Source: Opitutia bacterium (GTDB taxonomy: Bacteria > Verrucomicrobiota > Verrucomicrobiia > Opitutales > Opitutaceae). Taken from it: a DNA stretch of 64,000 bases. The first letter of the stretch is position 1, and each line of letters begins with the position of its first letter. The notes below the pieces were generated by a model. That model searched no databases, was not told the DNA's origin, and saw nothing but the letters and a program-made list of their open reading frames with translations. Where the stretch lies: contig JACPIT010000006.1 of the NCBI GenBank assembly GCA_016187945.1, positions 326,277-390,276 on the forward strand. Direction: 5' to 3'. Positions 10,001 to 64,000 of this stretch are shown piece after piece. The position numbers were made by a program, and so were the translations under genes.

Positions 10001-10515
10001 TGTTGCCCAACGGCGTGCCGCTCGCCACCCCCGGCGCCGCCGACGCGCCGAACATCGCCTTCGTTTCCCAGTGGCAAAACTTCCCGCGCGAACTCACCGC
10101 GCCGCTCTCCGGTCGCGCGCGTAAAATTTTCCTGCTGCTGGCCGGCTCGACGTGGGCGATGCAGAGCCGCCTCGACAACGGCGAGATCGTCATCGCCTAC
10201 CGCGACGGCACCGCCACGCGCGTGCCGCTCGAAAACCCGACGACGTGGTGGCCGATCGATCAGGACTATTTCGTCGACGACTTCGCGTTCGCCCGCTCCG
10301 GCGCTTTGCCGCTGCGGGTCGACCTGAAGACCGGCGCCGTGCGCGTGCTCGACGCGGATTCGTTTAAGGGCCGCGGCCGCGCGGCGCCGGGCGGAGCCGC
10401 GACCGTGCTCGATCTCGCCCTCGACCCGGAAAGGGAACTCGCGTCCCTCACGATCCGGGCGCTCGCCAACGACGTCGTCATCGGCCTGATGAGCGCGACG
10501 CTCGAGCGTCCATGA
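7093..10515 (+). CDS. DUF4450 domain-containing secreted protein, probable glycoside hydrolase-like
   Basis: A 1140-aa exported protein with a signal peptide (LVAGLAIALLLTGLACA). The segment LRYRPDGGDFVIVNGTERFN and the following RPLYGGASAFRVDAGDCPEF match the opening of DUF4450 proteins, a long Bacteroidota/Verrucomicrobiota family. The middle (about residues 330-700) has helix pairs with conserved Trp and His (HYDMNVVALDTIFRHLRWTG, TTNWMPYTWSLNN) consistent with an (alpha/alpha)6 barrel as in GH78/GH94-like enzymes. Beta-rich accessory regions precede and follow it. It is probably periplasmic or secreted and acts on a plant or algal polysaccharide; no substrate can be assigned. It ends 16 bases before the next gene. 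Confidence 0.8.
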   Translation: MPLRHLVAGLAIALLLTGLACAQSVHAARDGTDLRPNLAGQIARPLRYRPDGGDFVIVNGTERFNRPLYGGASAFRVDAGDCPEFSLYLPGRGGVLRLALVRDGQAKWLSDAAQITARYRAGTMVYEIRDAALGDGTLTLTALAPKSAEALLLRLELRDAPRAELATIYGGLTGERARRDGDLGTEPQPIRDYFRFQPEHCRDNKVTLGDAAFTVVHAKLAVAALFPGNADVAVADASRDDLAALLVPVERAIALPVGAARFLLEENRPAHLALLRATGIDNAAPLAHDALPVLFAREQAALLALSRRVTIETPDPFLDAALPALNIAADAVWDDRPNAFLHGAVAWRTRLLGWRVGYAGDALGWPERTRAHFDGFAAQQNTSPVPAALPAPEAPANLARNETALHSNGDLTNSHYDMNVVALDTIFRHLRWTGDLAYARKIWPVIERSLAWERRLFRREFGPDKLPLYEAYAAIWASDDLTYSGGGATHATALNLLHHREAARLARLLRVDPTPYETEATLIERGLQQHLWLAREGWFAESRDWLGLQRTHPSAAAWTVYHALDSQACTPLQAWQLARYADTALPRFPLTGRGVPPGAHTIATTNWMPYTWSLNNVVFAESTHTALALWQAGRTDAANRLFRGALLDSMFLGACPGNAGMTTALDVYRREAQRDFGDGIGAASRAIVEGLFGVTPDLLASEIVVRPGFPADWDRARLRHPRFDFFFERRGNTDRYTFVAQFAKPIALRFQVPARAANARVTLDGQPAAWRALPESVGEPRIEVLAPRADRFTVEIEWRGAPPPAPPADRALARDAELACDFGARIVEFADPQTALADVTISGSTLRGRAAGLAGARTAFARLEHGALRWWQPIEFEIRERDTVAPLVFTTDWRTPIAAPEKCEPLALAPLFNDRVAQLFRHDYLAPRSPFAALALARNGYGTWTHPNATFDIDDSGLRAVAAAHSDRLVLPNGVPLATPGAADAPNIAFVSQWQNFPRELTAPLSGRARKIFLLLAGSTWAMQSRLDNGEIVIAYRDGTATRVPLENPTTWWPIDQDYFVDDFAFARSGALPLRVDLKTGAVRVLDADSFKGRGRAAPGGAATVLDLALDPERELASLTIRALANDVVIGLMSATLERP

Positions 10516-10531
10516 CCGGACCTTCGCCGCC

Positions 10532-11227
10532 ATGTGCACGCGCTACTCGCTCCACGATCTCCCCGCGTTCCAGCGCCTGCTGAAACGATTCGGCCTGAAG
10601 ATGCCCGCGGAGCTGCGTGCCATCTACAACGCCACGCTCACCACGCGCATGCCCGCGATCGTGAAGCGCAAAGGCGCGGTCGCGCTCGAGCCGCTCGCCT
10701 TCGGGACGTCGCTCCCGCCGAAAGTGCCCGGCGAGAAACCGCTCCTGCTCGCCAACGCCCGCGCCGAGACGCTGCTCGAGCGCGGTGCATTCAAGGACGC
10801 CGCCCAACACCGCCGCTGCCTCGTGCCCGCAGACGGATTCTATGAGTGGGAAAAACAGGGCAAGGCGCGCCTGCCGCACTATTTTCAGCGCCGCGACGGC
10901 GACCCGTTTTTCTTCGCCGGCCTCTGGCGCGCCGAGACTGCGATTTCGCCGCCGGCCTTTGCGATCGTGACGACCACGCCGAACGAACTCGTCGCGCCGC
11001 TCCACGACCGCATGCCCGTGATGCTCAGCGACGACGAGAGCGCGCACGCCTGGCTGGGCGACGCACCGCTGCCCGCCGGCCAACTCGAGGCGCTCTGCAC
11101 GCCGTTCCCCGCCGACGCGATGCGCTCGCACCGCGTCGACCCGCGCATGAACAGCGCGCGCCACGAAGGCCTGGACTGCATCGCGCCGTTCACGCCGCCA
11201 CCGCCCGAGCGCGAGTTGTTCGACTGA
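10532..11227 (+). CDS. SOS response-associated peptidase, HMCES/YedK family
   Basis: A 231-aa SRAP-domain protein that shields abasic sites in single-stranded DNA by forming a thiazolidine crosslink through Cys2. Translation starts MCTRYS, so Cys2 is in place after Met removal. Other family signatures are NATLTTRMPAIV, LLLANARAETL, RRCLVPADGFYEW (catalytic Glu region) and LHDRMPVML (active-site His). The Asn-containing loop after Cys2 is slightly divergent. It sits 16 bases after the DUF4450 gene and may be co-transcribed, though the roles appear unrelated. Confidence 0.92.
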   Translation: MCTRYSLHDLPAFQRLLKRFGLKMPAELRAIYNATLTTRMPAIVKRKGAVALEPLAFGTSLPPKVPGEKPLLLANARAETLLERGAFKDAAQHRRCLVPADGFYEWEKQGKARLPHYFQRRDGDPFFFAGLWRAETAISPPAFAIVTTTPNELVAPLHDRMPVMLSDDESAHAWLGDAPLPAGQLEALCTPFPADAMRSHRVDPRMNSARHEGLDCIAPFTPPPPERELFD

Positions 11228-50951: not shown

Positions 50952-51842
50952 GAGTTTGGGTTTCTCCTTCAGCGCTTTCGCCAGCACGGCGCGTGTGAAC
51001 TCCAGATCGGCGCCGGCCAATTCGAGCCGCGGTGGGCGCACGTGCGGCGTGCCGCGTCCGACCTCGGCCTGCACCCATTTGATGAGCTGCACGAATTTCG
51101 GCACCGTATCGAGACGCAGCAGCGGCAGGAACCAGGTGTAGAGCGCCATCGCGCGCGCCTTGTCGCCGCGCGACGCGTAGTCGAACAACGCCACGCTCTC
51201 CGCGGGAAACGCGTTCACCAGCCCCGCAATCCAGCCGACCGCGCCCGCGTAAACGCCCTCGACGATCGCGTCGTCCATGCCCACGAGCACGTCGAGCCGG
51301 CGTCCGCAAACGGCGCGGATCGCGGTGACGCGCCGCACGTCGCCGCTGGATTCCTTCACCGCGTGGAGGTTCGAGTGCTCCGCCGCGAGCTCCGCGATCT
51401 GCTCGGGCAGGAAGTCCGTTTTGTAGGCCGGCGGGTTGTTGTAGAGCATGCACGAGAGCGGCGTCGCCGCGATCACCGCGCCGACGTGCGCCTTCATCTC
51501 GCGCCAGTCGCTCGAGTAAACGTAAGGCGGCAACACCATCAGGCCGCGCGCGCCGGCCGCCTGCGCGGCCTTTGCCATCGCCACCGCCTCGGCGGTCGTG
51601 AGCGACGCGATGCCGAGCGCGACGGGCGCGCGATCGCCGACCGCCGCGACCGCCGTGCGCACGACGTCGATCTTCTCCTCAAACGTCAGCGTCGCCGCCT
51701 CGCCGAGCGAGCCGCAGCACACGATGCCCGTGCAGCCGCTGTCGATCATCCAGCGGCAATGAGCGGCGAGCGCGTCGTGATCGACCGAGAGATCGGACTT
51801 CAGATTGGTCGTGATGGCGGGGATGACACCTTTCCAGTTCAT
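50949..51842 (-). CDS. 1-pyrroline-4-hydroxy-2-carboxylate deaminase (DapA superfamily)
   Basis: A 297-aa class I aldolase-fold protein, start MNWKGVIPAITTNLKSDLSV. GIVCCGSLGEAATLTFEEK corresponds to the GTTGE substrate loop, LMVLPPYVYSSDWREMKAHV and MLYNNPPAYKTDF (Tyr) follow, and LHAVKESSGDVRRV carries the Schiff-base Lys. DapA itself is unlikely given the neighbours: epimerase, D-amino-acid dehydrogenase and KGSADH, the LhpC/HypD context. It converts the dehydrogenase product to alpha-ketoglutarate semialdehyde with release of ammonia. Confidence 0.9.
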   Translation of the reverse strand: MNWKGVIPAITTNLKSDLSVDHDALAAHCRWMIDSGCTGIVCCGSLGEAATLTFEEKIDVVRTAVAAVGDRAPVALGIASLTTAEAVAMAKAAQAAGARGLMVLPPYVYSSDWREMKAHVGAVIAATPLSCMLYNNPPAYKTDFLPEQIAELAAEHSNLHAVKESSGDVRRVTAIRAVCGRRLDVLVGMDDAIVEGVYAGAVGWIAGLVNAFPAESVALFDYASRGDKARAMALYTWFLPLLRLDTVPKFVQLIKWVQAEVGRGTPHVRPPRLELAGADLEFTRAVLAKALKEKPKL

Positions 51843-51855
51843 AGAATGAAAATTC

Positions 51856-51908
51856 GGAGGGCCCGCGTCCTCGCGGGCCGTTGCGGCGCGCGGGGACGCG
51901 CGCCCTCC
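51856..51908. repeat. inverted repeat, GGAGGGCCCGCGTCCTCGCG family
   Basis: GGAGGGCCCGCGTCCTCGCGGG is mirrored by CGCGGGGACGCGCGCCCTCC. It lies between the deaminase and dehydrogenase genes, inside the operon. Confidence 0.82.
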
Positions 51909-51912
51909 AAGT

Positions 51913-53175
51913 TTAGCCAAATCGATCCGGGTTCGTGAGCGACAGGTCCACGCTCGGTTTCTTGCCCGAGAGCAACTCGGCGACGACGTGCCCGGTGATC
52001 GGCGCGAGCGTGATACCGAGCATCGCGTGGCCGCACGCGGCCGTGAGGTTTGCCTGCGCCGCGAAACGCCCGATGTAAGGCATGCCGTCGGGCGACACCG
52101 GTCGGTAGCCGAACCACGGCGCGATGCCGTCGAAGTCCGCCGCACTCATGTCCGGGAAATAGTCCTGCGCCGCCGCCTTGATCTGCTCGATGCGCTCGGC
52201 GCGCACGCGATCGACGTGGCCCGCGATTTCCATCGTGCCGCCGAAACGCAGCGTGTCGCCCATCGGCGTCACCGCCACGCGCCGCTCGGAGAGGATCATT
52301 GGCTTCTTCAGTTTGAAACGCGGCTTCTCGATCGTGAGCGAGTAGCCCTTGCCCGCCTGCATCGGCAGCCGCAACCCGAGCCCGCGGATCGTCTCCGGCG
52401 CCCACGAACCGGTGGCGAGCACGTATTCGTCGGCCGTGAGTTCGCCGGCACTGGTCGAGACGCCGGTGACGCGTCCGCCCTCGCTGCGCCAGCCGTAGAC
52501 GCTCGTGTTCCAATGGAACTTCACACCCTTCTGCTTGAGCAGCGTCACGAGCACCGGAATGAATTTTCGCGGCGAGATGTGCGCATCGATCGGGAAATAG
52601 ACCGCGCCCGCGATTTCCAGGCGCGCGCCAGGCTCGAGCGCAGCGACCTGCTGCGGCGTGAGAATCTTCGCCTCGACGCCGACGGAGTTCGCGAGCGCCG
52701 CGAGGCCTTTCTCGTAGGCGGCGAGTTTCTCGGGCGACTTGCAGAGGTTGAACAAGCCCTGCGCCTCGAACTCGAAGCGGTTGCCCGTCTGCTCCGCGAG
52801 CGCGACGAAGAGCTTGCGGCTCTCCAGGCAATGCTGCGCGAGCACCGGCGCCGCACGGCGTGTGTGCTCCGGCGTGCAACTGCGCGCGAACAGCCAGCCC
52901 CAGCGCATCAGGTCGGGATCGAGCCGCGGTTTGATGTAGAACGGACTGCGCGAACTCAGCATCCACTTCAGCCCTTGCCACACCATGCCCGGCGCCGAGA
53001 TCGGCTCGACGTGGCTCGGCGACACGTAGCCCGCGCTGCCGTGCGCGCAGGAGTCGGCCCCCTCGGCGTTGCGCTCGATGACCGTGACGGCGAATCCCGC
53101 CTTGGCGAGGTAGTGCGCGGTGCAGAGGCCAACGATGCCGCCGCCGCAAACGATGACGCTGCGCGAAGTGCTCAT
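51913..53175 (-). CDS. D-hydroxyproline dehydrogenase, FAD-dependent (DadA-like)
   Basis: A 420-aa DAO-family flavoprotein oxidising cis-4-hydroxy-D-proline. [20 protein letters not shown] is the FAD dinucleotide motif, followed by [53 protein letters not shown] and [20 protein letters not shown] are the C-terminal FAD/substrate regions. The ATG overlaps the epimerase stop by four bases, so the two are coupled. The single-polypeptide form corresponds to the LhpB/HpbD type rather than the heteromeric type. Confidence 0.9.
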
Positions 53176-54107
53176 GTGGTCCGAATACCCCAGCGAAACG
53201 GGTCGGCCGGGTCGAGCAGCAACACGCCCTCGCCGCACACGTGCGCCGTGCCCGTGATCGTCGGGAGAACCTTGTCGCCATCGCGCCGATAGCGTCCGCG
53301 GAACACGCTGCCGACGATGCTCTCCTGCACCCACTCGGCGCCCTCGGCGAGCTTCCCGTCTGCCGCGAGGCACGCGAGCTTCGCGCTCGTGCCGGTGCCG
53401 CACGGCGAACGGTCGTAGGCGCCACCGGGGCAGAGCACAAAATTCCGGCTGTGCACGCCCGTAGTCGGCGACGGCGCGAACAACTCAACGTGATCGACCT
53501 CGGGAAAGCCCTGCGCGTTCACCGCGGTCCGCACGCGCGAGGTGTAGTCGGTCAGTGCGGCGACGTTCGCCAGCTCGAGCCGTTGCCCATGTTCCTCGAC
53601 GAGGAAAAACCAATTGCCGCCCCACGCCACGTCGCCGCGCACGCGTCCGATGCCCGGGACGTCAACGGCCACACCCGCGGCCTGACGGTAGCTCGGCACG
53701 TTGTCGACCGACACGCTGCCGTCCGCCTGCAACGTCGCCGCCACGACGCCGACCGGCGTGTCGATGCGCACGACGCCGGGATTCACGCGACCGAGGTGCG
53801 CCAATGAAACGACGAGCCCCATCGTGCCGTGCCCGCACATGCCGAGCAGTCCGACGTTGTTGAAGAAAATCACGCCCACGTCGCATCCGGGCGCGTGCGG
53901 CTCGACGAGCAGCGCGCCCACGACCACGTCCGAGCCGCGCGGTTCGTTTACGATCGCAGAGCGATAGTGGTCGAAATCGCCGCGAAATCGCACCGCTCGT
54001 CCGGCCAGCGGCCCGCCACCGAGATCCGGCCCGCCCTCGAGCACGAGTCGCGTCGGCTCGCCGCCGGTGTGCGAATCGAGAATCCGAATGCGCGGCGGAG
54101 CGGACAT
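53172..54107 (-). CDS. 4-hydroxyproline 2-epimerase
   Basis: A 311-aa proline racemase family enzyme starting the operon. It interconverts trans-4-hydroxy-L-proline and cis-4-hydroxy-D-proline by a two-base mechanism. Both catalytic Cys are present: [14 protein letters not shown] (about residue 90) and [14 protein letters not shown] (about 236). In trans-3-hydroxyproline dehydratases the first Cys is Ser or Thr, so epimerase is the better call. [16 protein letters not shown] is the standard opening. No transcription factor of the operon is adjacent; PII lies just upstream on the same strand. Confidence 0.92.
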
Positions 54108-54118
54108 GCGGGGGCGAA

Positions 54119-54457
54119 TCAGAGCGCCGAGTCGCCGTGCTGCCCGGTGGTGATGCGAATGGCGTCTTCGAGCGGAACGACGAAAACCCGCCCGTCTCCG
54201 ACTGAACCGGTGCGCGCCGCCTTCAAGATTGCGTCGACCACAGCGTCCTTCTGCTCATCCCCCACGGCGACTTCGAGACGCACTCGCGGGACGAATTCCA
54301 CTTCGTATTCGGTGCCACGAAAGACTTCCGTGTGACCTTTCTGCCGGCCGAATCCCTTCATCTCGTCCACGATCATTCCCTCCACGCCGATGGCGCCGAG
54401 CGCCTCGCGAACGGCGTCCAATTTGAACGGCTTGATCAGCGCGATGATCAGTTTCAT
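54119..54457 (-). CDS. PII nitrogen regulatory protein
   Basis: A 112-aa trimeric signal protein sensing 2-oxoglutarate and [26 protein letters not shown] starts at 54455-54457. The T-loop [20 protein letters not shown] retains the modifiable Tyr, the B-loop region is [16 protein letters not shown], and it ends TGQHGDSAL. GlnB and GlnK cannot be separated by sequence alone, and no amtB is adjacent. It is 11 bases upstream of the epimerase gene on the same strand, so it may head a transcript that includes hydroxyproline catabolism, which releases ammonia and 2-oxoglutarate. Confidence 0.95.
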
Positions 54458-54571
54458 GGGGTGGCGGAGGATTCCCGCCCCTCTCGCGACCCGCAAGCTC
54501 CGAGTGTTCGGTGGACATGACAAGTTTGCGCGTTGCCAGCGCGCGAAGCGCTCTCGCACTCTCGGCGTCGC

Positions 54572-54862
54572 ATGTCCGCCCCGCAGGAGCTCAACATCGA
54601 CTACGTCGCGCAACTCGCGCGGCTCGCGCTCACCCCCGAGGAGAAGGCCAAATTCGCTGCGCAACTCGGCGACGTGCTGCACCACATCGAACGCCTCGCC
54701 GAAGTCGACGTGAGCGGTATCGAGGCGACGGCGCACGCGTTCCCCGTCGAAAACGTCTGGGACGCCGACGTGCCGCGCGCGGGCCTGAGCGTCGCCGACG
54801 CCCTGCGCAACGCACCCACGCAGCGCGAAAACATGATCAGCGTGCCGAAGGTGGTCGAATGA
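54572..54862 (+). CDS. gatC: Asp-tRNA(Asn)/Glu-tRNA(Gln) amidotransferase subunit C
   Basis: A 96-aa GatC. MSAPQELNIDYVAQLARLAL, LTPEEKAKFAAQLGDVLHHI and RAGLSVADALRNAPTQRENM are the canonical segments. GatC wraps around GatA and stabilises the GatAB complex, which amidates mischarged tRNA. It is first of gatC-gatA-gatB; the gene spacing contains interspersed repeats. Confidence 0.95.
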   Translation: MSAPQELNIDYVAQLARLALTPEEKAKFAAQLGDVLHHIERLAEVDVSGIEATAHAFPVENVWDADVPRAGLSVADALRNAPTQRENMISVPKVVE

Positions 54863-54869
54863 CGAAACT

Positions 54870-54927
54870 GTAGGAGCGGCTTTACGCCGCGACCGAACGT
54901 CTATCGCGGCGTAAAGCCGCTCCTACA
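54870..54927. repeat. inverted repeat, GTAGGAGCGGCTTTACGCCG family, between gatC and gatA
   Basis: GTAGGAGCGGCTTTACGCCGCGA is mirrored by TCGCGGCGTAAAGCCGCTCCTAC. It ends 9 bases before the gatA ATG, so the RNA hairpin would sit over the ribosome-binding region. Confidence 0.9.
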
Positions 54928-54936
54928 ATCGAACCG

Positions 54937-56397
54937 ATGTCCACTCCGCTCCATTTTCAGTCCCTCACCGAACTCTCCGCCCGCCTCGAGCGCCGCGAAC
55001 TCTCCGCCGTCGAGCTGATGCAGGCGCTGATCGCGCGCACGAAGGCCCTCGAGCCGCGCGTGCACGCCTTCAACTCCCGCGACGAGGCCGATGCCCTCGC
55101 CCAAGCCGCCGCGTCCGATGCACGACGCGCCGCTGGCCAGTCGCACGGTCCGCTCGACGGCATCCCGATCGGCTTGAAGGACGTGATCGCCGTGCGCGAT
55201 CAGCCGCTCACGGCTTCGAGCAAGATTCTCGAAAACTTCGTCTCGCCCTACGACGCCACCGTCACGCGCAAGCTCAAGGACGCCGGCGCCGTGCTCTGGG
55301 GTCGGCTCGGCTGCGACGAGTTCGCGATGGGCTCGTCCAATGAAAACTCGGCCTTCGGCGCCGTCGCGAATCCCTGGGACCTCACGCGCGTGCCCGGCGG
55401 CTCGTCCGGCGGCAGCGCCGCGGCGCTCGCGTCCGGCGAGGTCATCGCCTCGCTCGGTTCCGACACCGGCGGCTCCATCCGCCAACCGGCCGCGCTCTGC
55501 GGCCTCGTCGGCTTGAAGCCGACCTACGGCCTCGTCTCGCGCTACGGCCTCGTCGCCTACGCATCGTCGCTCGACCAGATCGGTCCGTTCGGCCGCACGA
55601 CGGAGGACGTCGCGCTCGTGCTCCGTGCGATCGCCGGTCACGACCCGCTCGACTCGACGTCGTTCAAGACCGACGCGCCGGACTACCGCGCCGCACTCGC
55701 CGGCCCGGCGCCGCGCCGCCTCGGCATCCCGAAGGAGTATTTCGGCGAAGGCCTCGACCCGGAGATCGCCGCCGCCGTGGAAGCCGCGGTGAAGTTCTAC
55801 CGCGATCGCGGCTGCGAGGTGAAAGAGGTTTCGCTGCCGCACACGCGCTACTGCCTCGACGCCTACTACGTCATCGCGACGGCCGAGGCGTCGTCGAACC
55901 TCGCGCGTTTCGACGGCGTGCGCTATGGCCACCGCTCGAAAGCTGCGACCGACGCGATCGATCTCTACGCCAAGTCGCGCGCGGAAGGTTTCGGCGCCGA
56001 AGTGAAGCGCCGCATCATCCTCGGCACCTACGTGCTCTCGAGCGGTTACTACGACGCCTATTACCTGCGCGCGCAGAAAGTCCGCACGCTGATCCGCCGC
56101 GATTTCCTGAACGCTTTCGCCGAGGTCGACGCGCTGCTCACGCCCACGTCGCCCGTGCCGGCCTTCAAGATCGGCGAGAAGGCCGACCCGCTCGCGATGT
56201 ATCTCCTCGATATCTACACGATCGGCGTGAACCTCGCCGGCCTGCCCGCCGCGAGCGTGCCGTGCGGCTTCACGCGCGCCGGCCTGCCGATCGGCCTGCA
56301 ACTCATCGGCCAGCCCTTCAAGGAAGCCGACCTCCTCGCCCTCGCCCACACCTACGAGCAAGCGCACGAATGGTCACAGCGCCGTCCGGCGCTGTGA
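54937..56397 (+). CDS. gatA: Asp-tRNA(Asn)/Glu-tRNA(Gln) amidotransferase subunit A
   Basis: A 486-aa amidase-signature enzyme releasing ammonia from glutamine. [19 protein letters not shown] carries the catalytic Lys; [19 protein letters not shown] and [20 protein letters not shown] carry the cis-Ser and nucleophile Ser. [20 protein letters not shown] and the C-terminal [14 protein letters not shown] are standard. Length is normal. Confidence 0.97.
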
Positions 56398-56510
56398 AAG
56401 CTCCAACATCCAAGCTCCAACATCCAATGAGTTTTCAAAGATCCACACGACAATTGGGAGTTTGCCGATTGGTGTTTCTCTGGAGCTTGGAGGTTGGAGC
56501 TTGGAGCTTT
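56398..56510. repeat. inverted repeat, AGCTCCAACATCCAAGCTCC family, before gatB
   Basis: AAGCTCCAACATCCAAGCTCC is mirrored by GGAGCTTGGAGGTTGGAGCTTGG. It is the second copy of the element in front of pyrC. The right arm supplies a GGAG about 9 bases before the gatB ATG. Confidence 0.82.
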
Positions 56511-56515
56511 TTCGC

Positions 56516-58021
56516 ATGAGCGATTTCGAAGCAGTCATCGGCCTCGAGGTGCACGTCCAGATCAAGACGGCATCGAAGATGTTCACGCGCGTCGCCACCG
56601 GTTACGGCGAGCCGCCGAACACGCTCACCGACCCCACCGTCCTCGCGCTCCCCGGCGCGCTGCCGGTGCTGAACAAGGCCGCGCTCGACGCCATCATCAA
56701 GACCGGCCTCATGCTCGATTGCGAAATCGCGCACGTCACGCGCTGGGACCGGAAGAACTATTTTTATCCCGACAGCCCGAAGAACTACCAGCTCTCGCAA
56801 TACGACCAGCCCGTCTGCCGCCACGGCGCCGTCGAGATCGAACTGCCCGGCTCCTCGCTCGCCGTCATGGGCGAGCACAAGAAGATCGAGCTGACGCGCA
56901 TCCACCTCGAGGAAGACGTCGGCAAACTCAACCACGAGACCAACGACTCGCTCATCGACTACAACCGCGCCGGCACGCCGTTGATGGAGATCGTCACCGA
57001 GCCCGTCATCCGCTCGGCCGACGAAGCCTTCGCGTTCCTCACCTCGCTGCGCCAATCGCTCATCTACGCCGGCATCTCCGATTGCGACATGGAGAAGGGC
57101 CAGATGCGTTGCGACGCCAACATCTCGATCCGCCGCGTCGGCGAAACGAAGCTCGGCACCAAGGTCGAGCTGAAGAACCTCAACTCCATCTCCTACGTGC
57201 GCGACGGCATTGTCACGGAGATCAAGCGGCAGATCAATGTCGTCACCAGCGGCGGCACGATCGTGCAGGAAACGCGCCTCTACGACGGCGAGACCGGCCG
57301 CAGCGCCTCGATGCGCTCGAAGGAAATGGCGCACGACTACCGCTACTTCCCCGACCCCGACCTGATGCCCGTGCGCATCGACGCCGAGTGGAAGGCCCGC
57401 CTCGTGGCCGAACTCCCCGAAGCTCCCTTCGCGAAGCAGCGTCGCTTCATCGAAGCGTTTACGCTGCCCTACTCCGCCGCGTCCGTGCTCGTCCGCGACC
57501 GCACGCTCGCCGACTTTTTCGAAGCGACGGTGAAACTCGGCGCGAAGCCCGTCGCCGCCGCCAACTGGATCACGAACGACCTGCTGCGCGAACTCACTGC
57601 CGCGAAGGAAACTGTGGGCAGCCCGCTTGCGGGCGCTTCCCCGAGCGCGAGCAAGCTCGCTGACCCACAGCCCAGCGAAAGCAAGATCACGCCCACGCAC
57701 ATCGCCGGCCTCGTCGCTCTCCTCGAGCAAGGCGCGGTGTCGAGCAGTCAGGCGAAGGAGATTTTCGCCGAGATGTTCCAAACCGGCGAGCAAGCCGCCG
57801 CCGTCGCCGACCGCAAAGGCCTCAAGCAATCCTCCGACACCGGCCAGCTCGAAGGCTGGTGCGCCACCGCCATCGCGAACGACGCGAAGACCGCCGACCA
57901 AGTGCGCGGCGGAAACTTGAAGGCGATCAACGCGCTGAAGGGCGCCGTGATGAAACTCTCGGCCGGCAAAGCGAACCCGAAGCTCGTCGACGAGATTTTG
58001 AAGAAGCAACTCGGCGTGTGA
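56516..58021 (+). CDS. gatB: Asp-tRNA(Asn)/Glu-tRNA(Gln) amidotransferase subunit B
   Basis: A 501-aa GatB that activates and transamidates the misacylated aminoacyl end. MSDFEAVIGLEVHVQIKTAS, PGALPVLNKAALDAIIKTGL, RKNYFYPDSPKNYQLSQYDQ and HLEEDVGKLNHE identify the kinase-like core; the C-terminal helical/YqeY tail ends NPKLVDEILKKQLGV. About 20 extra residues (TVGSPLAGASPSASKLADPQ) between the core and tail come from an in-frame palindromic repeat at 57612-57670. The final 90 bp recur at 61420-61509. Upstream in-frame starts fall in a repeat. Confidence 0.96.
   Translation: MSDFEAVIGLEVHVQIKTASKMFTRVATGYGEPPNTLTDPTVLALPGALPVLNKAALDAIIKTGLMLDCEIAHVTRWDRKNYFYPDSPKNYQLSQYDQPVCRHGAVEIELPGSSLAVMGEHKKIELTRIHLEEDVGKLNHETNDSLIDYNRAGTPLMEIVTEPVIRSADEAFAFLTSLRQSLIYAGISDCDMEKGQMRCDANISIRRVGETKLGTKVELKNLNSISYVRDGIVTEIKRQINVVTSGGTIVQETRLYDGETGRSASMRSKEMAHDYRYFPDPDLMPVRIDAEWKARLVAELPEAPFAKQRRFIEAFTLPYSAASVLVRDRTLADFFEATVKLGAKPVAAANWITNDLLRELTAAKETVGSPLAGASPSASKLADPQPSESKITPTHIAGLVALLEQGAVSSSQAKEIFAEMFQTGEQAAAVADRKGLKQSSDTGQLEGWCATAIANDAKTADQVRGGNLKAINALKGAVMKLSAGKANPKLVDEILKKQLGV
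57612..57670. repeat. palindromic repeat inserted in frame in gatB
   Basis: CTGTGGGCAGCCCGCTTGCG...AGCAAGCTCGCTGACCCACAG: the outer arms CTGTGGG/CCCACAG enclose smaller dyads. It is related to the unit at 44482-44575 upstream of thrS. It encodes a linker between GatB core and tail. Confidence 0.8.
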
Positions 58022-58068
58022 GCGGTGGCCAGTTGAAACGTCGCATTTCGGATAGCAAATAGCTTAGG

Positions 58069-58096
58069 TTGACGAATTTTCTGATATCTCTAGCTA
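58069..58096 (+). promoter_or_regulatory. possible promoter of the cassette behind gatB
   Basis: TTGACG (58069-58074), a 16-bp spacer and TAGCTA (58091-58096), in a conspicuously AT-rich 80 bp. Transcription would start within a few bases of the TTG start codon, giving a very short or absent leader. Confidence 0.4.
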
Positions 58097-58105
58097 TTCC
58101 ATCTC

Positions 58106-59089
58106 TTGGCGTTTCAAGGCAAACATCCCTTTTTCGCATTCCTGCAAGGTGCCGCGACTCAGGCAGCGCTTGAAGAATCGGCTCCCGCCGAAAACTATGT
58201 GCTCGACGAGCGCGTCCCCGGCGCGCGTGAGGATGATTTCCTTTCACTGAACGGCTTTGCCGCCGCAGCGCACTCCAAAGATTCGTGGTTCAAGCAGCAT
58301 GTCGATTACACCAAGGCCCGGGTGGCTTTGCCGTCAGTCAGCGCAACCTTCACCAGTATCAATCAGCCAAACTGGCTCGGACTCAGTCCCGATTGGGATG
58401 TGATTCGCATCGAAACTCTATACGGATTGGCTGGGCGCGCCAATGCCAAGGGGTCCCCACTCGGCGAAGCGGAAGTGAACGACTTACTCCGCGACTTCAT
58501 TCGTGCACGTGACTCCGGCACCAGCTTCGACCCGATCAAGACGGCGCAATTGGAAAAGTGGCTCCGCCACGTCAACAGCGGCAGCGATCGCCGTCCCGCC
58601 TTCGTCGCTCCCTTCGCGGAAGTAGAGGACATGTTGAAGCAGCCCGATTGGGCCAATCGACTTCGCGACGCACTTGGCCTCGGGCATATCAGGTCTTGGG
58701 AAGACCCAACCACGAGGGCTGCGATGCCAACCGCTGTCGTGCTGATGCAATACAACCTCATCCGCGTCCATGATGCCCACATTGGTAGGCCTGCGTGGGC
58801 CGCATCTCCCACAGTGCTCGACGATGTGCCGCGCCAGATGCCGAATCCCTGCTTCTTCCCTGCGCCGAAGGCTGTTTCTCTAGAGGGCTACGGATATACG
58901 GTGGACCTCGCCGCCACTGGTGCAACCTATCGGAAGGAATTTCTCCACGGCCATATTGCTTACACTCTCGCCGACGTCCGCCGCGTCGGCGAAGTGACCA
59001 CTGATGCTACCTCGCGCATAGCCGATGCCCGCAAGGACCATCGCGAACTGCTGAAGAGCGACCTCGTTCATTTCGCCGATCTCCCGTGA
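58106..59089 (+). CDS. cassette protein 1, unrecognised (327 aa)
   Basis: A 327-aa protein with a TTG start; an in-frame stop at 58091 and no ATG nearby force this choice. I recognise no family. Visible features are SWFKQHVDYTKARVALPSVS, SPDWDVIRIETLYGLAGRAN, LLRDFIRARDSGTSFDPIKT, WLRHVNSGSDRR and a Gly/Tyr-rich GYGYTVDLAATGATYRKEFL. It is soluble, with no signal peptide or membrane helix. Its stop overlaps the next start (GTGA), so it forms a coupled pair with the TPR protein. It begins 85 bases after gatB, inside the interval bounded by the two gatB 3' ends. A defence or toxin role is possible but has no direct support. Confidence 0.7.
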   Translation: MAFQGKHPFFAFLQGAATQAALEESAPAENYVLDERVPGAREDDFLSLNGFAAAAHSKDSWFKQHVDYTKARVALPSVSATFTSINQPNWLGLSPDWDVIRIETLYGLAGRANAKGSPLGEAEVNDLLRDFIRARDSGTSFDPIKTAQLEKWLRHVNSGSDRRPAFVAPFAEVEDMLKQPDWANRLRDALGLGHIRSWEDPTTRAAMPTAVVLMQYNLIRVHDAHIGRPAWAASPTVLDDVPRQMPNPCFFPAPKAVSLEGYGYTVDLAATGATYRKEFLHGHIAYTLADVRRVGEVTTDATSRIADARKDHRELLKSDLVHFADLP

Positions 59090-61401
59090 ACGAATCCGTC
59101 CAGAAATGGCTCGATGAACTGTCCGCCGCCCCCTCCGAGGCGATTCAGAAGCTCGTGCTCGGATACTCCGGCGTCTCAGCATGGTCGCGGTCCAGCCTGC
59201 GCGAATCGTTCGTCGAAATCTTCCAGACCCACGCCCAGCCGCTGGACGCCGCCGTCGCCGCATGGCTGCAAGAGCGCCTGATGAAACTCCCGCCGGAGAA
59301 GACACCCACGCTCGTCTGGGCCTCGCACCTTCAGGATTTGTTCGGTGCTCTCGCCGGCCTGCCGCTGCCGCAGGTCGCCCGCCTGCTGCGCGACCGGCTG
59401 CGCGACTTCCGCTCGTGGCTGCGCCCGCTGCGGACGGACGAGAGCCTCGATCCCGAAGCCGCCTATCTCGCCGCGCTCGCCTGGGCCGACACCAACCAGC
59501 ACCTGGAAGGCATGTGGCAGGGACTGGCGTTACGCCGCGACCGCGAACCGGCCTACTACACCGACATCGGCCTGCTCGGCCTCCGCAAGACGCGGGACGA
59601 TCGTGGCCAGTTGCCGCCCAAGGCACCGTTCCTCCTGCTCGCCACTCTAATTGACCTCGCCGACACCGGCCTCTCGCAAAAGGACTGGCTCCTCACCACC
59701 CGCGCGCTGCTCGGCGGCTACCACTACAGCTTGGAAACATGGGTGCGCGAGTTCGAGCCGGTGCTGGCGACGAGGCCGAATGCGGAGCGGGGATCAAAGT
59801 GGTTAGGGAAGATTCTTCCCGAATTCGCCATTCGGAAAGTGAACCCATTGCCACGAATTCAAACGCCCACGAAAGCTGATACTGATCGATTCGTCATGGA
59901 AGTGCGTAATGCAGGCCCTTCACGCGTTGGGCTTCCACTTGAGAATTTCCTGACAAGCCAGCGGTCTTACGCCAATGCGAGCTTTGATTCTTATCATTTG
60001 GTTCGCTCCTTTAATCGTCTGGCTGAGGCCGCGCGCTTTCATGATCCTGAATGGGCTGTTGCCCGAGCAGAGGAGGCGTTGGCTTGGGACGAGAACAATG
60101 CTCGCAACTGGACGGTCCTAGCTCGGAGCCTCTGGGCACGCGGCCTTCATAGGAAAAAGGGAAGTAATGTCCGAATTGCCGAAACCGACTGCCGCGCAGC
60201 AATCGACATTCTTTGGGATGCCCGGCTCCGGTTTCCTTGGGACAAGGTCGGACGCAAAGAACTTGGACGTCTACACCGTGACGCGGGCGACTTTGAGACA
60301 GCAGAGGCGATCTACCGCGAGGCGATGACCGAGTTTCCTAATGACGATGCCTGCCGTAACGGTTTGGCGGATATTCTTACCAAGACTAACCGGATTCGAG
60401 AAGCAGAGGCCCTTTATCGGGAGACACGATCGTTGTTTGACCAAGATCCTTATTCGCGAACCGGCCTCGCCGAGATTCTCTTCCATCGCAGCGCCACCAA
60501 TCGCGATATGATCGAACGCGATGAGGCACGTTTAATTTTCCGCGAGGCTGCCCACCTGAATGACCGCTACGCGCGCGGGCGGGTCAACGACTTCGACCAG
60601 CGGTGGGCGAAAGCTGCATTGCATCGCCAGCGTCAAGCCGGTCTCGGACATGAGGAAAATGAAACCATCGAGCTATCGCGAACCTCACCCGAGGAAATGC
60701 GCCCCGCGCAACGTCTCGGACATGCCCTGCTGCTCCAGTGGAAAGCCCGTCGGACGGAATCCGCCGGGGAACGCGAGCGCCTCCTTGCCGAAGCCGAGTC
60801 ACTGCTGAACCTGCCCGACGAGTTGACCGGCGAATGCCACACCGCCTTCGTGGAAGCGCGCGGCTTCCTCCTGCTCGCCCGCGACCGGGCGACCGAAGCC
60901 CGCGCCTACTTCGAGCAGCAACTCGCCGCCTTCACCCGCTCACCGCTCGGACTGCGACTCGGCTTCGCCGAAGCCCGCGCCCGCCTCGGCGAAACCCTCA
61001 GCGACACCGAAGAAGCCGAACTCGCCTCCTTCGGCCCCGAAGGCAGCATCCTGCCCCTCGTCCTGAAAGTCGTCCGCCTGCTCGAGCACACCGCCTCCGA
61101 CGACGAACTCCGAGACTTGCTCCTCGAACTCTACCCCCGCGTCCGCGAACTCGCCGGAATGCCCGCATCTGAATTAGGAGAAGAGGACGAGCCAGCCGAG
61201 CCCACCGCTCCCGCGCGTCAGCCAGAAACTCCCGACACCATGATGGCCCACCTCCTCCTCGCAAACATCTTCCGCCCCGCCGCCATCAATGCCCCCGTCG
61301 ACCTCCAAGCCGCCGATGCCATTCCCCGCATCCGCGCGTCGCTTAAGAAACAACGCGGAGACATCTTCTCTGTCGCCGAAAAGCTCGCGCTGGCAGCGTA
61401 A
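59086..61401 (+). CDS. cassette protein 2, large TPR-like repeat protein (771 aa)
   Basis: A 771-aa protein with a GTG start overlapping the previous stop by four bases. TPR-like helix pairs are evident around residues 320-345 (NRLAEAARFHDPEWAVARAE, EALAWDENNARNWTVLARSL) and 395-460 (LGRLHRDAGDFETAEAIYRE, LADILTKTNRIREAEALYRE). Another set lies near 600-640 (ARGFLLLARDRATEARAYFE). The N-terminal 250 residues are helical and Leu/Arg-rich (LPLPQVARLLRDRLRDFRSW). The central part (about 59.8-60.7 kb) is AT-richer than the ends. No enzymatic motif is seen. It is probably a scaffold or sensor acting with cassette protein 1. Confidence 0.75.
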   Translation: MNESVQKWLDELSAAPSEAIQKLVLGYSGVSAWSRSSLRESFVEIFQTHAQPLDAAVAAWLQERLMKLPPEKTPTLVWASHLQDLFGALAGLPLPQVARLLRDRLRDFRSWLRPLRTDESLDPEAAYLAALAWADTNQHLEGMWQGLALRRDREPAYYTDIGLLGLRKTRDDRGQLPPKAPFLLLATLIDLADTGLSQKDWLLTTRALLGGYHYSLETWVREFEPVLATRPNAERGSKWLGKILPEFAIRKVNPLPRIQTPTKADTDRFVMEVRNAGPSRVGLPLENFLTSQRSYANASFDSYHLVRSFNRLAEAARFHDPEWAVARAEEALAWDENNARNWTVLARSLWARGLHRKKGSNVRIAETDCRAAIDILWDARLRFPWDKVGRKELGRLHRDAGDFETAEAIYREAMTEFPNDDACRNGLADILTKTNRIREAEALYRETRSLFDQDPYSRTGLAEILFHRSATNRDMIERDEARLIFREAAHLNDRYARGRVNDFDQRWAKAALHRQRQAGLGHEENETIELSRTSPEEMRPAQRLGHALLLQWKARRTESAGERERLLAEAESLLNLPDELTGECHTAFVEARGFLLLARDRATEARAYFEQQLAAFTRSPLGLRLGFAEARARLGETLSDTEEAELASFGPEGSILPLVLKVVRLLEHTASDDELRDLLLELYPRVRELAGMPASELGEEDEPAEPTAPARQPETPDTMMAHLLLANIFRPAAINAPVDLQAADAIPRIRASLKKQRGDIFSVAEKLALAA

Positions 61402-61419
61402 GCGCTAACGTTTGCTGAG

Positions 61420-61509
61420 GCGCTCAAGGGCGCCGTGATGAAACTCTCCGCCGGCAAAGCGAACCCGAAGCTGGTGGACGAGATTCTGAAGAAGCAGCTC
61501 GGGGTCTAA
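61420..61509 (+). pseudogene. detached duplicate of the gatB 3' end
   Basis: Ninety bases encoding ALKGAVMKLSAGKANPKLVD and the following EILKKQLGV plus stop, exactly the last 29 residues of GatB. Against 57932-58021 there are nine nucleotide differences, all synonymous (including TGA to TAA). There is no start codon or upstream gatB sequence. It marks the right end of the inserted cassette. Confidence 0.9.
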
Positions 61510-61523
61510 CGGACTGTGTTCTG

Positions 61524-61682
61524 AGGTGGGCGCCGGCGTTCCTGCCGGCGTCGCGAGCGTGGCTCAGGACTCGATTCGCCCGATCGTCACTCATGTTCCC
61601 TCTGTCATTGCGAGGAGCACAGCGACGAAGCAATCGAGCGAACTGGATCGCCACGCCCGACTTCGTCGGGCTCGCGATGACA
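61524..61682. repeat. two interspersed repeats right of the cassette
   Basis: A GGTGGGCGCCGGCGTTCCTG palindrome (61524-61556) is followed by a TGTCATTGCGAGGAGCACAG element (61605-61682) whose mirrored arm ends CGCGATGACA and whose centre holds CGACTTCGTCGGG. No gene is supported between the gatB remnant and the glucoamylase-fold gene. Confidence 0.7.
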
Positions 61683-61705
61683 AACAAAGACAGGATGCCG
61701 CCGAA

Positions 61706-63859
61706 CTACTTCCCGCCTGCTCTCGCGCGTCCCCGAAATGTCCGCACCAGCGCCAGCAGCGCGCAGAGCAGCACCGACCACAGACTCGGTGCGCCTCCTC
61801 CGCCGCCTCCACGAGACGGCGCAGGCGGCGGAGCGGCGTTGACCGTGAGCGTGACCGCGTCGCTCGTGGCGGAGCCTTCGCTGTTCGACACGACGACGTG
61901 GTAGGAGCCGGCGTCGGCGGCCTGCACCGCGGCGAAGGTCAGCGTGTCGCTCGTCGCGCCCGCGAGCGCCGTGCCGCCTTTGAACCACTGGTAGCTGAGC
62001 GGCGCCGTGCCGCTCGCGACGACGCGGAACGATCCAGATTGCCCGACGGTCGCGGCAACGTTCGCGGGCTGCGTGGTGATCGAGATCGTCGCGGGCGTCG
62101 TGACGCCCGCGATGTTCTTCCAGCCGGAAGCGCCGGACGAGTTCGTGGTGCGCATACGCACTTGGTATGCGGTGCCGCTGCGCGCGGTGAAGGTGGCACT
62201 CGTGGCGTTCGCGGGCGTGGTCGCGACGGCGTTAAAAGTCGCGCCGCCGTCGGTCGAGGCTTCGACTTGGAAGCCGGTTTCGAAGTCGGCGCGGTCGGTC
62301 CAGGTAACGGCGATCTGTGTCGCGGACTGGGCGACGGCGACAACGTTGTCAGGCGGCGGCGCGGTGAAGCCGGCGCGTTGCAGGCCGCGTTGGATGATCG
62401 GGCTGCGCAGCATGCGTTGCCAGAGTTCGGCGCTGCGGTGGTTTTCGATCATCAACACGTTCGTGCCGGCGCTGATGCCGATGACGTCGGGATCGAACCA
62501 GCGATTCGCGGTGAGGTTGAAGGCGTCGCAGTAGCCGTAGTCGGACCAGATCGAGGCGCCGTAAGTGTCGTAGAGGTGGCGCAGCGCGGGCACGCAGGCC
62601 TCGGGCGCGAACGGCACCGACCCCATCAACGCAGTCGGCGAGAGCGTGCCGTCGTCGAGCGTGACGGGGCGGCCGGGCGGTGCCCCGCGACCGTCGTAGC
62701 CGGAATAAACGACGCCGTTAATCGTCGCGCCCGGGCCGTCGCAGGCGGTGATGCCGAATTCGCGTTCGCCGTAATTCGCGAACGGGCGCGTGGCGGCGTA
62801 GGCTTGTTGCGCGAGCGTGGCGCGACGGGAGTTCTCGAAGTAGTCGATGCCGCCGCCGTTCGTGCGCAGGTAGGCGTCAGTCATGCCGCGAAAATCGATC
62901 CAGCAATGCGAGTATTGGTGCGTGAACAGCGAGCCGGTCGGGCACCACGCGTAGCTGTAGCCGTAGTGAATGCGCCACGCGTAGGTGGCGGTCCACGTCG
63001 TCCACGAGCCGGAGGGCAACGGGCTGTTCGCGGCGCCGAGGCCGAGGAGGTAGAGCGCCATCGCCTCGTTGTAGCCCGACCAGCCGCTCGCGTGGTAGCC
63101 GCTCTCGGGTTTCCAGTCCATCGCGAGGAGATTGTCGGACCGCAGCATGAAGGCCCAATCGACGCGGCTGACGAGCGTGTCGGCCGCTCGGCGGATCGCG
63201 ACTTCGGTGGCGTCCGCGCCGTCGTAGTAGAGCGCGCAATCGATGACGCCGAGCAGCAAGAGCGCCGTGTCGATCGTGGAGAGTTCGCTGTTCCAGGCGC
63301 GCAGGCCGGTGTTCGCGTCGATGAAGTGGTAGAACCAGCCGCGATAGCCGGAGGTGCCGGTCGCGGCCGGGCCTTGCGGGAGGTTGACGAGGAACTCGAG
63401 CGTCGTGCGCACGCGTTCGCGGGCCGCGGCGCGCGTCATCCAGCCGCGCGAGACGGCGATGTTCGTGCTGCTCAGCCCGAAGCCGACCGCGGCGATGCTG
63501 CACACGTCGAGGTTCGAGGCGCGGTCGGGCACGAGCCCCGTGACCGGGTGCTGCGTCGCCCAGAAATACGCGAAGGTCTGCTGCTCGACGTAGCCGAGGA
63601 AGTCGTCGTCGCTCACGAAGCTCGCGCGGCGTCCGGTCTGGGTCGGCAAAGTGTAGGCGGCGAGCGACACGGCTGAGAGTCCGCAGAAGGTAACGAGGCC
63701 CACCACGCCGCGCCATCCGCGAAATCCCGCCGAAATTTCCGCGAAAACGCCCAAAAATGACAACGTTTGCACCGCCAGCACCGTAGGAAGCCGCCTCGGT
63801 TCGGCAAACTCCAAAGCTGAATTCGGAGCCGCCGCCGGGTCGCGGACAACACGCTTCAC
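61706..63859 (-). CDS. glucoamylase-fold (GH144-like) protein with Fn3, Ig-like and C-terminal sorting segments
   Basis: A 717-aa secreted protein with a GTG start and an N-terminal hydrophobic anchor (residues 27-70). Residues 80-495 match the glucoamylase PF10091/GH144 fold: VEQQTFAYFWATQHPVTGLV, RGWFYHFIDANTGLRAWNSE, LSTIDTALLL, YNEAMALYLLGLGAANSPLP and GISAGTNVLMIENHRSAELW. GH144 members cleave beta-1,2-glucan. Residues about 502-590 look like fibronectin III, 592-673 like an Ig domain (SYQWFKGGTALAGATSDTLT). The end is GGGGGGAPS, a 14-residue hydrophobic helix and a basic tail, resembling GlyGly-type C-terminal sorting signals. Confidence 0.85.
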   Translation of the reverse strand: MKRVVRDPAAAPNSALEFAEPRRLPTVLAVQTLSFLGVFAEISAGFRGWRGVVGLVTFCGLSAVSLAAYTLPTQTGRRASFVSDDDFLGYVEQQTFAYFWATQHPVTGLVPDRASNLDVCSIAAVGFGLSSTNIAVSRGWMTRAAARERVRTTLEFLVNLPQGPAATGTSGYRGWFYHFIDANTGLRAWNSELSTIDTALLLLGVIDCALYYDGADATEVAIRRAADTLVSRVDWAFMLRSDNLLAMDWKPESGYHASGWSGYNEAMALYLLGLGAANSPLPSGSWTTWTATYAWRIHYGYSYAWCPTGSLFTHQYSHCWIDFRGMTDAYLRTNGGGIDYFENSRRATLAQQAYAATRPFANYGEREFGITACDGPGATINGVVYSGYDGRGAPPGRPVTLDDGTLSPTALMGSVPFAPEACVPALRHLYDTYGASIWSDYGYCDAFNLTANRWFDPDVIGISAGTNVLMIENHRSAELWQRMLRSPIIQRGLQRAGFTAPPPDNVVAVAQSATQIAVTWTDRADFETGFQVEASTDGGATFNAVATTPANATSATFTARSGTAYQVRMRTTNSSGASGWKNIAGVTTPATISITTQPANVAATVGQSGSFRVVASGTAPLSYQWFKGGTALAGATSDTLTFAAVQAADAGSYHVVVSNSEGSATSDAVTLTVNAAPPPAPSRGGGGGGAPSLWSVLLCALLALVRTFRGRARAGGK

Positions 63860-63867
63860 ACCAGTAG

Positions 63868-63881
63868 CTAATGATAATTAG
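63868..63881. promoter_or_regulatory. AT-rich inverted repeat between divergent genes
   Basis: CTAAT-GATA-ATTAG, five-base perfect arms, in the 59-bp gap between the glucoamylase-fold gene and the gene starting at 63919. It could be an operator for a regulator encoded by either neighbour. Confidence 0.4.
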
Positions 63882-63918
63882 ACTTTAAGCCGAGCGGAAA
63901 TTTCTCTCGAATTCGGCC

Positions 63919-64000
63919 ATGGCGAGAAAACTACCGGAGTTGGGAGAGAGGTTGGTGGCGGAGGTCGAGGCGGCGTGGACCCGGCCGCAGGAGGCGTGGG
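63919..64000 (+). CDS. 5' end of unidentified gene, cut by window edge
   Basis: From the ATG at 63919, 27 codons are visible: MARKLPELGERLVAEVEAAW then TRPQEAW. Divergent from the glucoamylase-fold gene. Too short to assign. Confidence 0.45.
   Translation, partial: MARKLPELGERLVAEVEAAWTRPQEAW

Follow-up and report, generated by a model that had tools for sequence, protein, structure and literature searches.

A two-gene cassette in the genome of an Opitutia bacterium (Opitutaceae; assembly GCA_016187945.1, contig JACPIT010000006.1) is flanked on both sides by copies of the gatB 3' end, the distal of which appears to be the native end of the resident gene and the proximal of which likely came in with the cassette. 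The window, i.e., the whole stretch of 64,000 nucleotides that was analyzed, thus holds what looks like the trace of a homology-guided insertion, in which a foreign gatB 3' end and the cassette behind it recombined with the resident gatB and left the native end stranded. We put the probability of this reading at about one-half; homology-guided insertion at gene 3' ends is favored over an integrase acting in trans but is not proved. The features of the locus are collected in Table 1.

Table 1. Features of the gatB locus, in window coordinates
Feature	Position	Strand	Description
gatB	56516..58021	+	501 codons plus stop, complete, ending in the proximal tail; GatB_N and GatB_Yqey domains, equivalog NF004012 above cut-off
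3' part of gatB	57419..57931	+	Looks replaced by foreign DNA; excess of sites unique to this genome (G000)
Proximal gatB tail	57932..58021	+	29 codons plus stop; probably arrived with the cassette
AT-rich left spacer	58022..58105	+	Between the gatB stop and gene 1; GC 0.44
Gene 1	58106..59089	+	327 aa, TTG start; family without known domain
Gene 2	59086..61401	+	771 aa, GTG start; all-helical TPR protein with a variable middle
Right spacer	61402..61419	+	18 nt, 56% GC
Distal gatB tail	61420..61509	+	29 codons plus stop; probable native end, now severed from its gene
Intergenic sequence	61510..61705	.	Lies behind gatB in G007; first ~77 nt align with L017 past the gatB stop
Glycoamylase-like gene	61706..63859	-	PF10091, E 1.4e-64; 79.6% DNA identity with L017 7621-9746

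The initial annotation, made from the letters of the window, had reported that the last 90 bp of gatB recur at 61420-61509. A repeat search confirmed this, with 57932-58017 and 61420-61505 forming a direct repeat of 86 nt at 92% identity and a spacing of 3488; the 19 other direct-repeat families listed for the same 8 kb are each 14 to 35 nt long. Both 90-nt tails translate to ALKGAVMKLSAGKANPKLVDEILKKQLGV*, and, as had been claimed, all nine differences between them are synonymous: eight lie in codons, seven at third positions and one at a first position, and the ninth falls within the stop codon (TGA versus TAA). The annotation had argued that a dead duplicate would not have decayed so selectively, and the argument holds. 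Had the two copies started out identical at insertion, with selection afterwards acting on the proximal one only, i.e., under simple duplication, nine synonymous differences out of nine would have a probability of 2e-4 to 9e-4. Used as queries against the genome itself, the last 160 nt of gatB gave two matches, the gatB end and the distal copy, and the whole GatB protein found the same two places only. These queries revealed no second gatB, hence no complete paralogue to which the distal copy could belong.

Relatives of the bacterium show what the site looks like without the cassette. GatB was searched for in twelve other genomes of the genus, with matches in ten and none in two. The distal tail, as a query against the DNA around the ten congener gatB genes, had one match in nine of them, at the gatB end, and none in the tenth (G001) at the threshold used. 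The empty site that the initial annotation had proposed to look for is found in G007, in which a single tail and a short intergenic stretch lead to the glycoamylase-like gene also present in the window. The DNA behind the distal tail aligns with that behind the G007 gatB with a score of 49, which none of 1000 shuffles reached (best, 41), whereas the DNA behind the proximal tail scores only 24, a value matched by 112 of 1000 shuffles. Because the native downstream sequence stands behind the distal tail and not behind the proximal one, we infer that the distal copy is the resident gatB's own end in its own place and that the proximal copy is the likely incomer. The earlier proposal that the gatB 3' end served as a junction carrying a foreign tail, as tRNA 3' ends do for tRNA-targeting islands, is therefore supported. 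An attempt to name the foreign copy from the nine differing tail sites did not identify it and was dropped, as the sites are too few and the ten congeners are split between the two copies.

Other cargo behind gatB had also been anticipated. In G005, a different stretch of 3.5 kb, without a second tail, separates gatB from the same glycoamylase-like gene. By eye, the genes in this stretch (~7434-10997 of locus L018) are porin-like, periplasmic, and chemoreceptor-like, and the last residues of the G005 GatB are unlike those of other congeners. The arrangement seen in the window is not shared by all close relatives, the nine congeners surveyed (of twelve known) being without gene 1.

The part of gatB ahead of the proximal tail also looks foreign, which counts as support for the insertion rather than as proof of it. 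Sites unique to G000 (the genome carrying the window), G007, and G005 number 38, 12, and 11 in 57419-57931 (with the insertion described below left out), compared with 313, 271, and 254 in 51000-57418 and 197, 153, and 142 in 61706-63955, and the resulting excess of G000-only sites has a Fisher p of 2e-4 to 3e-4 versus the flanking regions. Of 301 sliding windows of 440 nt, the five with the highest G000-only share start at 57400-57480 and peak at 0.64; those starting at 52520-52620 reach 0.55-0.60 in the same scan, close to this top value. A similar drop in the gatB 3' part is also seen between G007/G005 and G006/G008, and the G000-only excess could instead stem from another recombination in gatB. 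The same region contains, at 57605-57680, an in-frame insertion of 19 codons, with inverted repeats, that none of the ten aligned congener GatBs has; by eye, it resembles a repetitive palindromic element read through by gatB.

The cassette itself consists of two genes that overlap by 4 nt. The annotation's description of AT-rich flanks is right for the left spacer, which has 44% GC against 64% in gatB, and wrong for the right one. Its remark that no integrase is visible is true for the interval, since both ORFs lack matches to recombinase families and carry neither recombinase nor transfer domains. Gene 1 has no Pfam, NCBIfam, or PADLOC match, and neither gene matches a known defense family in PADLOC up to E 10. 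When about 8000 candidates were scored for each gene, 128 proteins proved to be related to gene 1 and 109 to gene 2 at E 0.001, the cassette's own protein being included in each count. No PDB relative of gene 1 was found by sequence, and its fold model, of modest quality (pLDDT 70.6), matches no PDB entry at E 0.001. Gene 2 contains a TPR_19 match (E 4e-14, residues 399-463), and its model (pLDDT 87.9) matches TPR and other helical-repeat scaffolds in the PDB (best E 2.3e-5). Assignment of a function from structure was dropped, given the lack of a PDB match for the gene 1 model and the scaffold-only matches for gene 2. The mean identity of gene 2 to 27 chosen relatives is 0.74 in the N part, 0.46 in the middle, and 0.65 in the C part, and the middle ranges from 254 to 337 residues in length among 28 aligned proteins of the 109. 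A middle this variable would suit a sensor facing a changing ligand. We predict, solely by association with the cargo of the thiC arrays discussed below, that the cassette is a defense module with a TPR sensor.

The distribution of gene 1 is patchy. In overlapping samples of 387 genomes of the phylum, 273 of the order, and 200 of the family, it was found in a single genome each time, namely, its own; among 85 genomes in the order of a Stagnimonas MAG, it was found in that MAG alone; and among 320 genomes in the order of G553, it was matched in four at E 0.001 and was full-length in two, G553 and G963. Searches of 72,556 plasmid records, 50,697 phage records, and viral contigs gave no gene 1 match, and a phage or plasmid origin of the cassette was rejected on these results. 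Over 579 nt of gene 2, the window is 91% identical in DNA sequence to the Stagnimonas MAG (blastn), although a binning error in the MAG may lie behind this match. The cassette is thus rare in the genomes sampled and likely mobile between phyla. In the MAG (locus L016), gene 1 starts ~300 nt behind a tRNA 3' end that is cut by the contig start, and no second copy of the tRNA end was seen there; similarly, no tail duplication was seen beside the cassette at L015. Homology with these two copies begins at 58096 (L015) and 58181 (L016), and a blastn comparison of the three cassettes gave no common terminal sequences beyond the genes. One further sequence, in G1078 (L057), combines a gene 1-like part with a shortened gene 2-like part (N part, without the TPR part) beside a uracil phosphoribosyltransferase domain; it was set aside as a partial relative, the contig being too short to judge.

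The same geometry recurs at another housekeeping gene, thiC. G963 has a distant relative of the cassette behind its thiC gene, with copies of the thiC end both before gene 1 and after gene 2 that include an exact repeat of 25 nt. The repeat after gene 2 belongs to a 12-residue tail copy, a partial cupin gene (so called from its likeness to the L090 cupin) lies between gene 2 and the thiC tail, and a further thiC tail follows 4 kb on. In the family of G963, thiC was matched in 44 of 49 genomes, several of which have extra tails. We inspected 35 loci (L056 and L090-L123); most have one intact thiC end and no more, and 11 (L056 and L090-L099) have extra or stranded tails. A 60-residue thiC tail used as a query matched 255 of 320 genomes of the order, 56 of them twice or more, with the most matches in G894 (10) and in G828 and G966 (7 each); some of these multiple matches may reflect split contigs, second thiC genes, or contamination. 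On one G966 contig (L090, G966:C51), which contains no complete thiC, six thiC tails alternate over 10 kb with cargo that includes two cupin genes and two 170-aa genes; where the cupin stop meets the thiC tail, the joint is identical in both L090 copies and in G963. Stranded tails also occur on contigs or stretches without thiC in G961, G553, G967, and G1007 (L094-L098), one of them preceding a type ISP restriction-modification gene, and these may mark units inserted away from thiC.

A further 18 loci (L155-L172) were fetched from genomes with several thiC-tail matches. Fifteen of them hold 24 inner thiC fragments among cargo, and the other three contain nothing but a complete thiC or a piece at a contig end. 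Of the 24 fragments, 14, from nine genomes, are preceded by nearly the same sequence, in which AGTTGAATT occurs twice. This conserved stretch of ~50-85 nt, in which AGTTGAA-like motifs are repeated, forms the end of each of the 14 cargo blocks concerned (L155-L171). With up to 7 mismatches allowed, the junction sequence was found nowhere else in the loci examined or in the window, apart from overlapping copies; it is absent from all 18 fragments in L056 and L090-L099, and its pattern has no exact match in viral contigs. Its conservation makes it look like a recombinase site rather than a product of random joining. The fragments start anywhere from codon 398 to codon 644 of thiC, with recurrent starts at codons 412-415 (six genomes) and 494 (four genomes), a spread at odds with a single fixed crossover. 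Of the 14 fragments that follow the common junction sequence, 12 measure 484-765 nt, which is enough for homologous recombination.

The cargo at thiC was compared with protein families. A Pfam scan of 29 larger cargo proteins placed 11 in DNA methyltransferase, restriction-enzyme, or methylase-associated HNH families, including ApaLI-like and AccI-like enzymes and type ISP and C5 methylases; several of the 29 have no Pfam match. None of these 29 larger ORFs, in which alone serine recombinases were sought, has a recombinase domain. Ten of the 29 were also run against PADLOC: five match defense models at E < 1e-50 (Aga_TIR-PNTD1-PNTD2, pAgo_I, Old, PDC-S06, and a type II restriction enzyme), another two give weak matches, and the remaining three give none. 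A TIR protein and short Argonaute pair (PADLOC) occupies 6472-9334 of L158 (G828), between thiC and a thiC fragment. Alignments indicate that tail and cargo move together at thiC as one unit. The stranded tail of G961 and its 280-aa gene align unbroken with G986 (83%, 1054 nt), in which the aligned tail is the end of an intact thiC followed by the same 280-aa gene. Likewise, in G966 a tail and a 170-aa gene align with G1001 (84.6% over 475 nt, up to where the contig ends), and a tail and a DUF2971 gene align with G978 (70.8% over 934 nt), thiC being intact in both of these genomes. By eye, the 280-aa and 170-aa genes are nucleotidyltransferase-like; the latter has no Pfam match.

Homology-guided insertion is supported by the empty site, the native context found behind the distal tail only, the synonymous-only differences, the unusual divergence of gatB at 57419-57931, the scattered occurrence of gene 1, and the recurrence of this geometry at thiC in G963. 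The incoming DNA would have carried a foreign gatB 3' end with the two-gene cassette behind it and would have recombined by homology with the resident gatB, which would have received a new end while its native end was left behind the cassette. The left crossover would lie inside gatB, perhaps near 57419; end joining or a microhomology event would have connected the right end to the resident gene at present codon 473, and natural transformation or another form of DNA uptake would have been the vehicle. The mobile unit would be cargo plus the 3' end of a housekeeping gene, hence would carry homology to the same gene in every relative, and repeated events would give rise to thiC arrays of the kind seen elsewhere. 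As the window lacks the thiC junction sequence, the processes at gatB and thiC may differ, and the two may use different agents.

A recombinase could also have produced the arrangement, by site-specific integration at the gatB tail, with a tyrosine or serine enzyme acting in trans or since lost and a CIME-like attL/attR remnant left in place. We consider this possible but doubtful. Attachment at a 3' end in which the element's copy restores the gene and displaces the native copy is the geometry expected of it, and the conserved sequence with two AGTTGAATT motifs before 14 thiC fragments, the repeated use of codons 412-415 and 494, and the position of the L016 cassette behind a tRNA 3' end all speak for it. 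Tyrosine recombinase domains were found in all 13 genomes tested (8 in the bacterium's own), as in 14 control genomes, tyrosine recombinase genes being common among bacteria at large. None of these domains lies on the window's contig among the 7 of 8 own-genome matches listed, however. The absence of recombinase domains from the 29 thiC-locus cargo proteins scanned, the wide variation of the thiC fragment starts, and the lack of a terminal sequence shared by the window, L015, and L016 cassettes (blastn) also argue against it.

Strict insertion with long target duplication, in which the resident tail would have been copied at insertion and the two copies would then have diverged, we regard as unlikely. 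It would explain an insertion that is absent from G007 and flanked by an 86-nt direct repeat of its target, and the thiC loci are rich in restriction-modification genes, the cargo named for such insertions in the excerpts of the literature available. An unconstrained distal copy would nonetheless have to have kept nine of nine differences synonymous (P 2e-4 to 9e-4), and the gatB sequence ahead of the tail also looks foreign. The synonymous-only pattern would find another explanation if the distal tail were kept by selection for a different role, such as terminator or short peptide, a proposal to which we attach very little weight. An in-frame ATG in the distal copy would yield a 23-residue peptide, and some thiC tails start at an internal ATG and stay open, but the 114 nt of DNA around the distal copy fold no better than shuffles (z -1.0 and -0.1).

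Defense genes cluster and turn over fast, and to our knowledge the movement of cassettes without recombinases is poorly understood. Homology-guided insertion invites a broader and quite tentative proposal, that housekeeping-gene 3' ends are an integrase-free counterpart of integron sites, at which defense cassettes dock by homology and stack. If this is true, cassettes joined to a thiC or gatB end would renew that gene's end in any relative, gene tails would replace attC sites in stacked arrays, and housekeeping-gene ends would be a docking place for the swapping of defense-like genes. The scar, a core gene's 3' end that is either foreign or displaced, could be searched for in any genome and would trace each transfer; the tail would name the donor lineage, and new defense genes could be found beside it. 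The thiC arrays make the question testable, as they provide junctions by the dozen, a conserved junction sequence, and counterparts in other genomes where the cargo follows an intact thiC. An integron in the literal sense was considered and rejected, since the tails do not generally fold in the manner of attC sites (z 0.55, 1.12, -1.01, and -0.12 for the gatB tails); of three thiC ends, one stands out (z -3.4 and -2.0), and the others range from -0.6 to 0.5. Among the PF00589 matches listed, none lies on the window's contig, on G966:C51, or on G963:C113.

Parts of this picture are already described, according to the available excerpts of the papers cited here, as insertion with long target duplication, CIME accretion, and minimal mobile elements; a limited literature search found no paper on thiC or gatB ends in a docking role and none that treats thiC together with both restriction-modification and duplication of a target. 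Insertion with long target duplication (Nobusato et al. 2000; PMC1643837, PMC2749054) is linked in those excerpts to restriction-modification genes. As there, the present insertion is absent from a close relative (G007) and has a long direct repeat of the target (86 nt, 92%) at both ends, and restriction-modification genes are found at the thiC loci. The two copies here, unlike those of such insertions as excerpted, appear to come from different working genes, the copying of the repeat from one target at insertion being disfavored on statistical rather than absolute grounds (P 2e-4 to 9e-4). Further differences are that the target is a gatB or thiC 3' end, that the thiC insertions stack into arrays, and that 14 thiC junctions share a sequence.

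CIMEs and their tandem accretion at gene 3' ends, as excerpted from PMC5704250, likewise involve an element without integration genes between two gene-end copies and stacking at one site. The cargo here lacks integration and transfer genes, and its tails can be equated with att sites by assumption; the fragment starts vary, unlike those of CIMEs, inner fragments reach 765 nt, and no related autonomous element or integrase was found at gatB or thiC, the DNA directly behind gatB having been inspected in ten congeners. Minimal mobile elements (Saunders and Snyder 2002, cited in PMC2649163), as outlined in the portion available, offer the likeness of a slot between conserved genes, as different cassettes occur between gatB and the glycoamylase-like gene, with G007 empty and G000 and G005 carrying different cargo; exchange through both flanks, however, would leave no extra gene tail. 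The ssrA-specific islands of Dehalococcoides, an integration module being reported in 16 of 31 (PMC3146451, in excerpt), target an RNA gene, whereas the target here is a protein gene and no integration module was seen, but they too bring many cargo modules to one single-copy gene. Finally, for the E. coli H47 island, which is without a recombinase, the excerpt of PMC5426353 reports RecA-independent excision between short repeats. The repeats described here are longer and diverged, but H47 resembles our case as a small island that lacks a site-specific recombinase and recombines between direct repeats.
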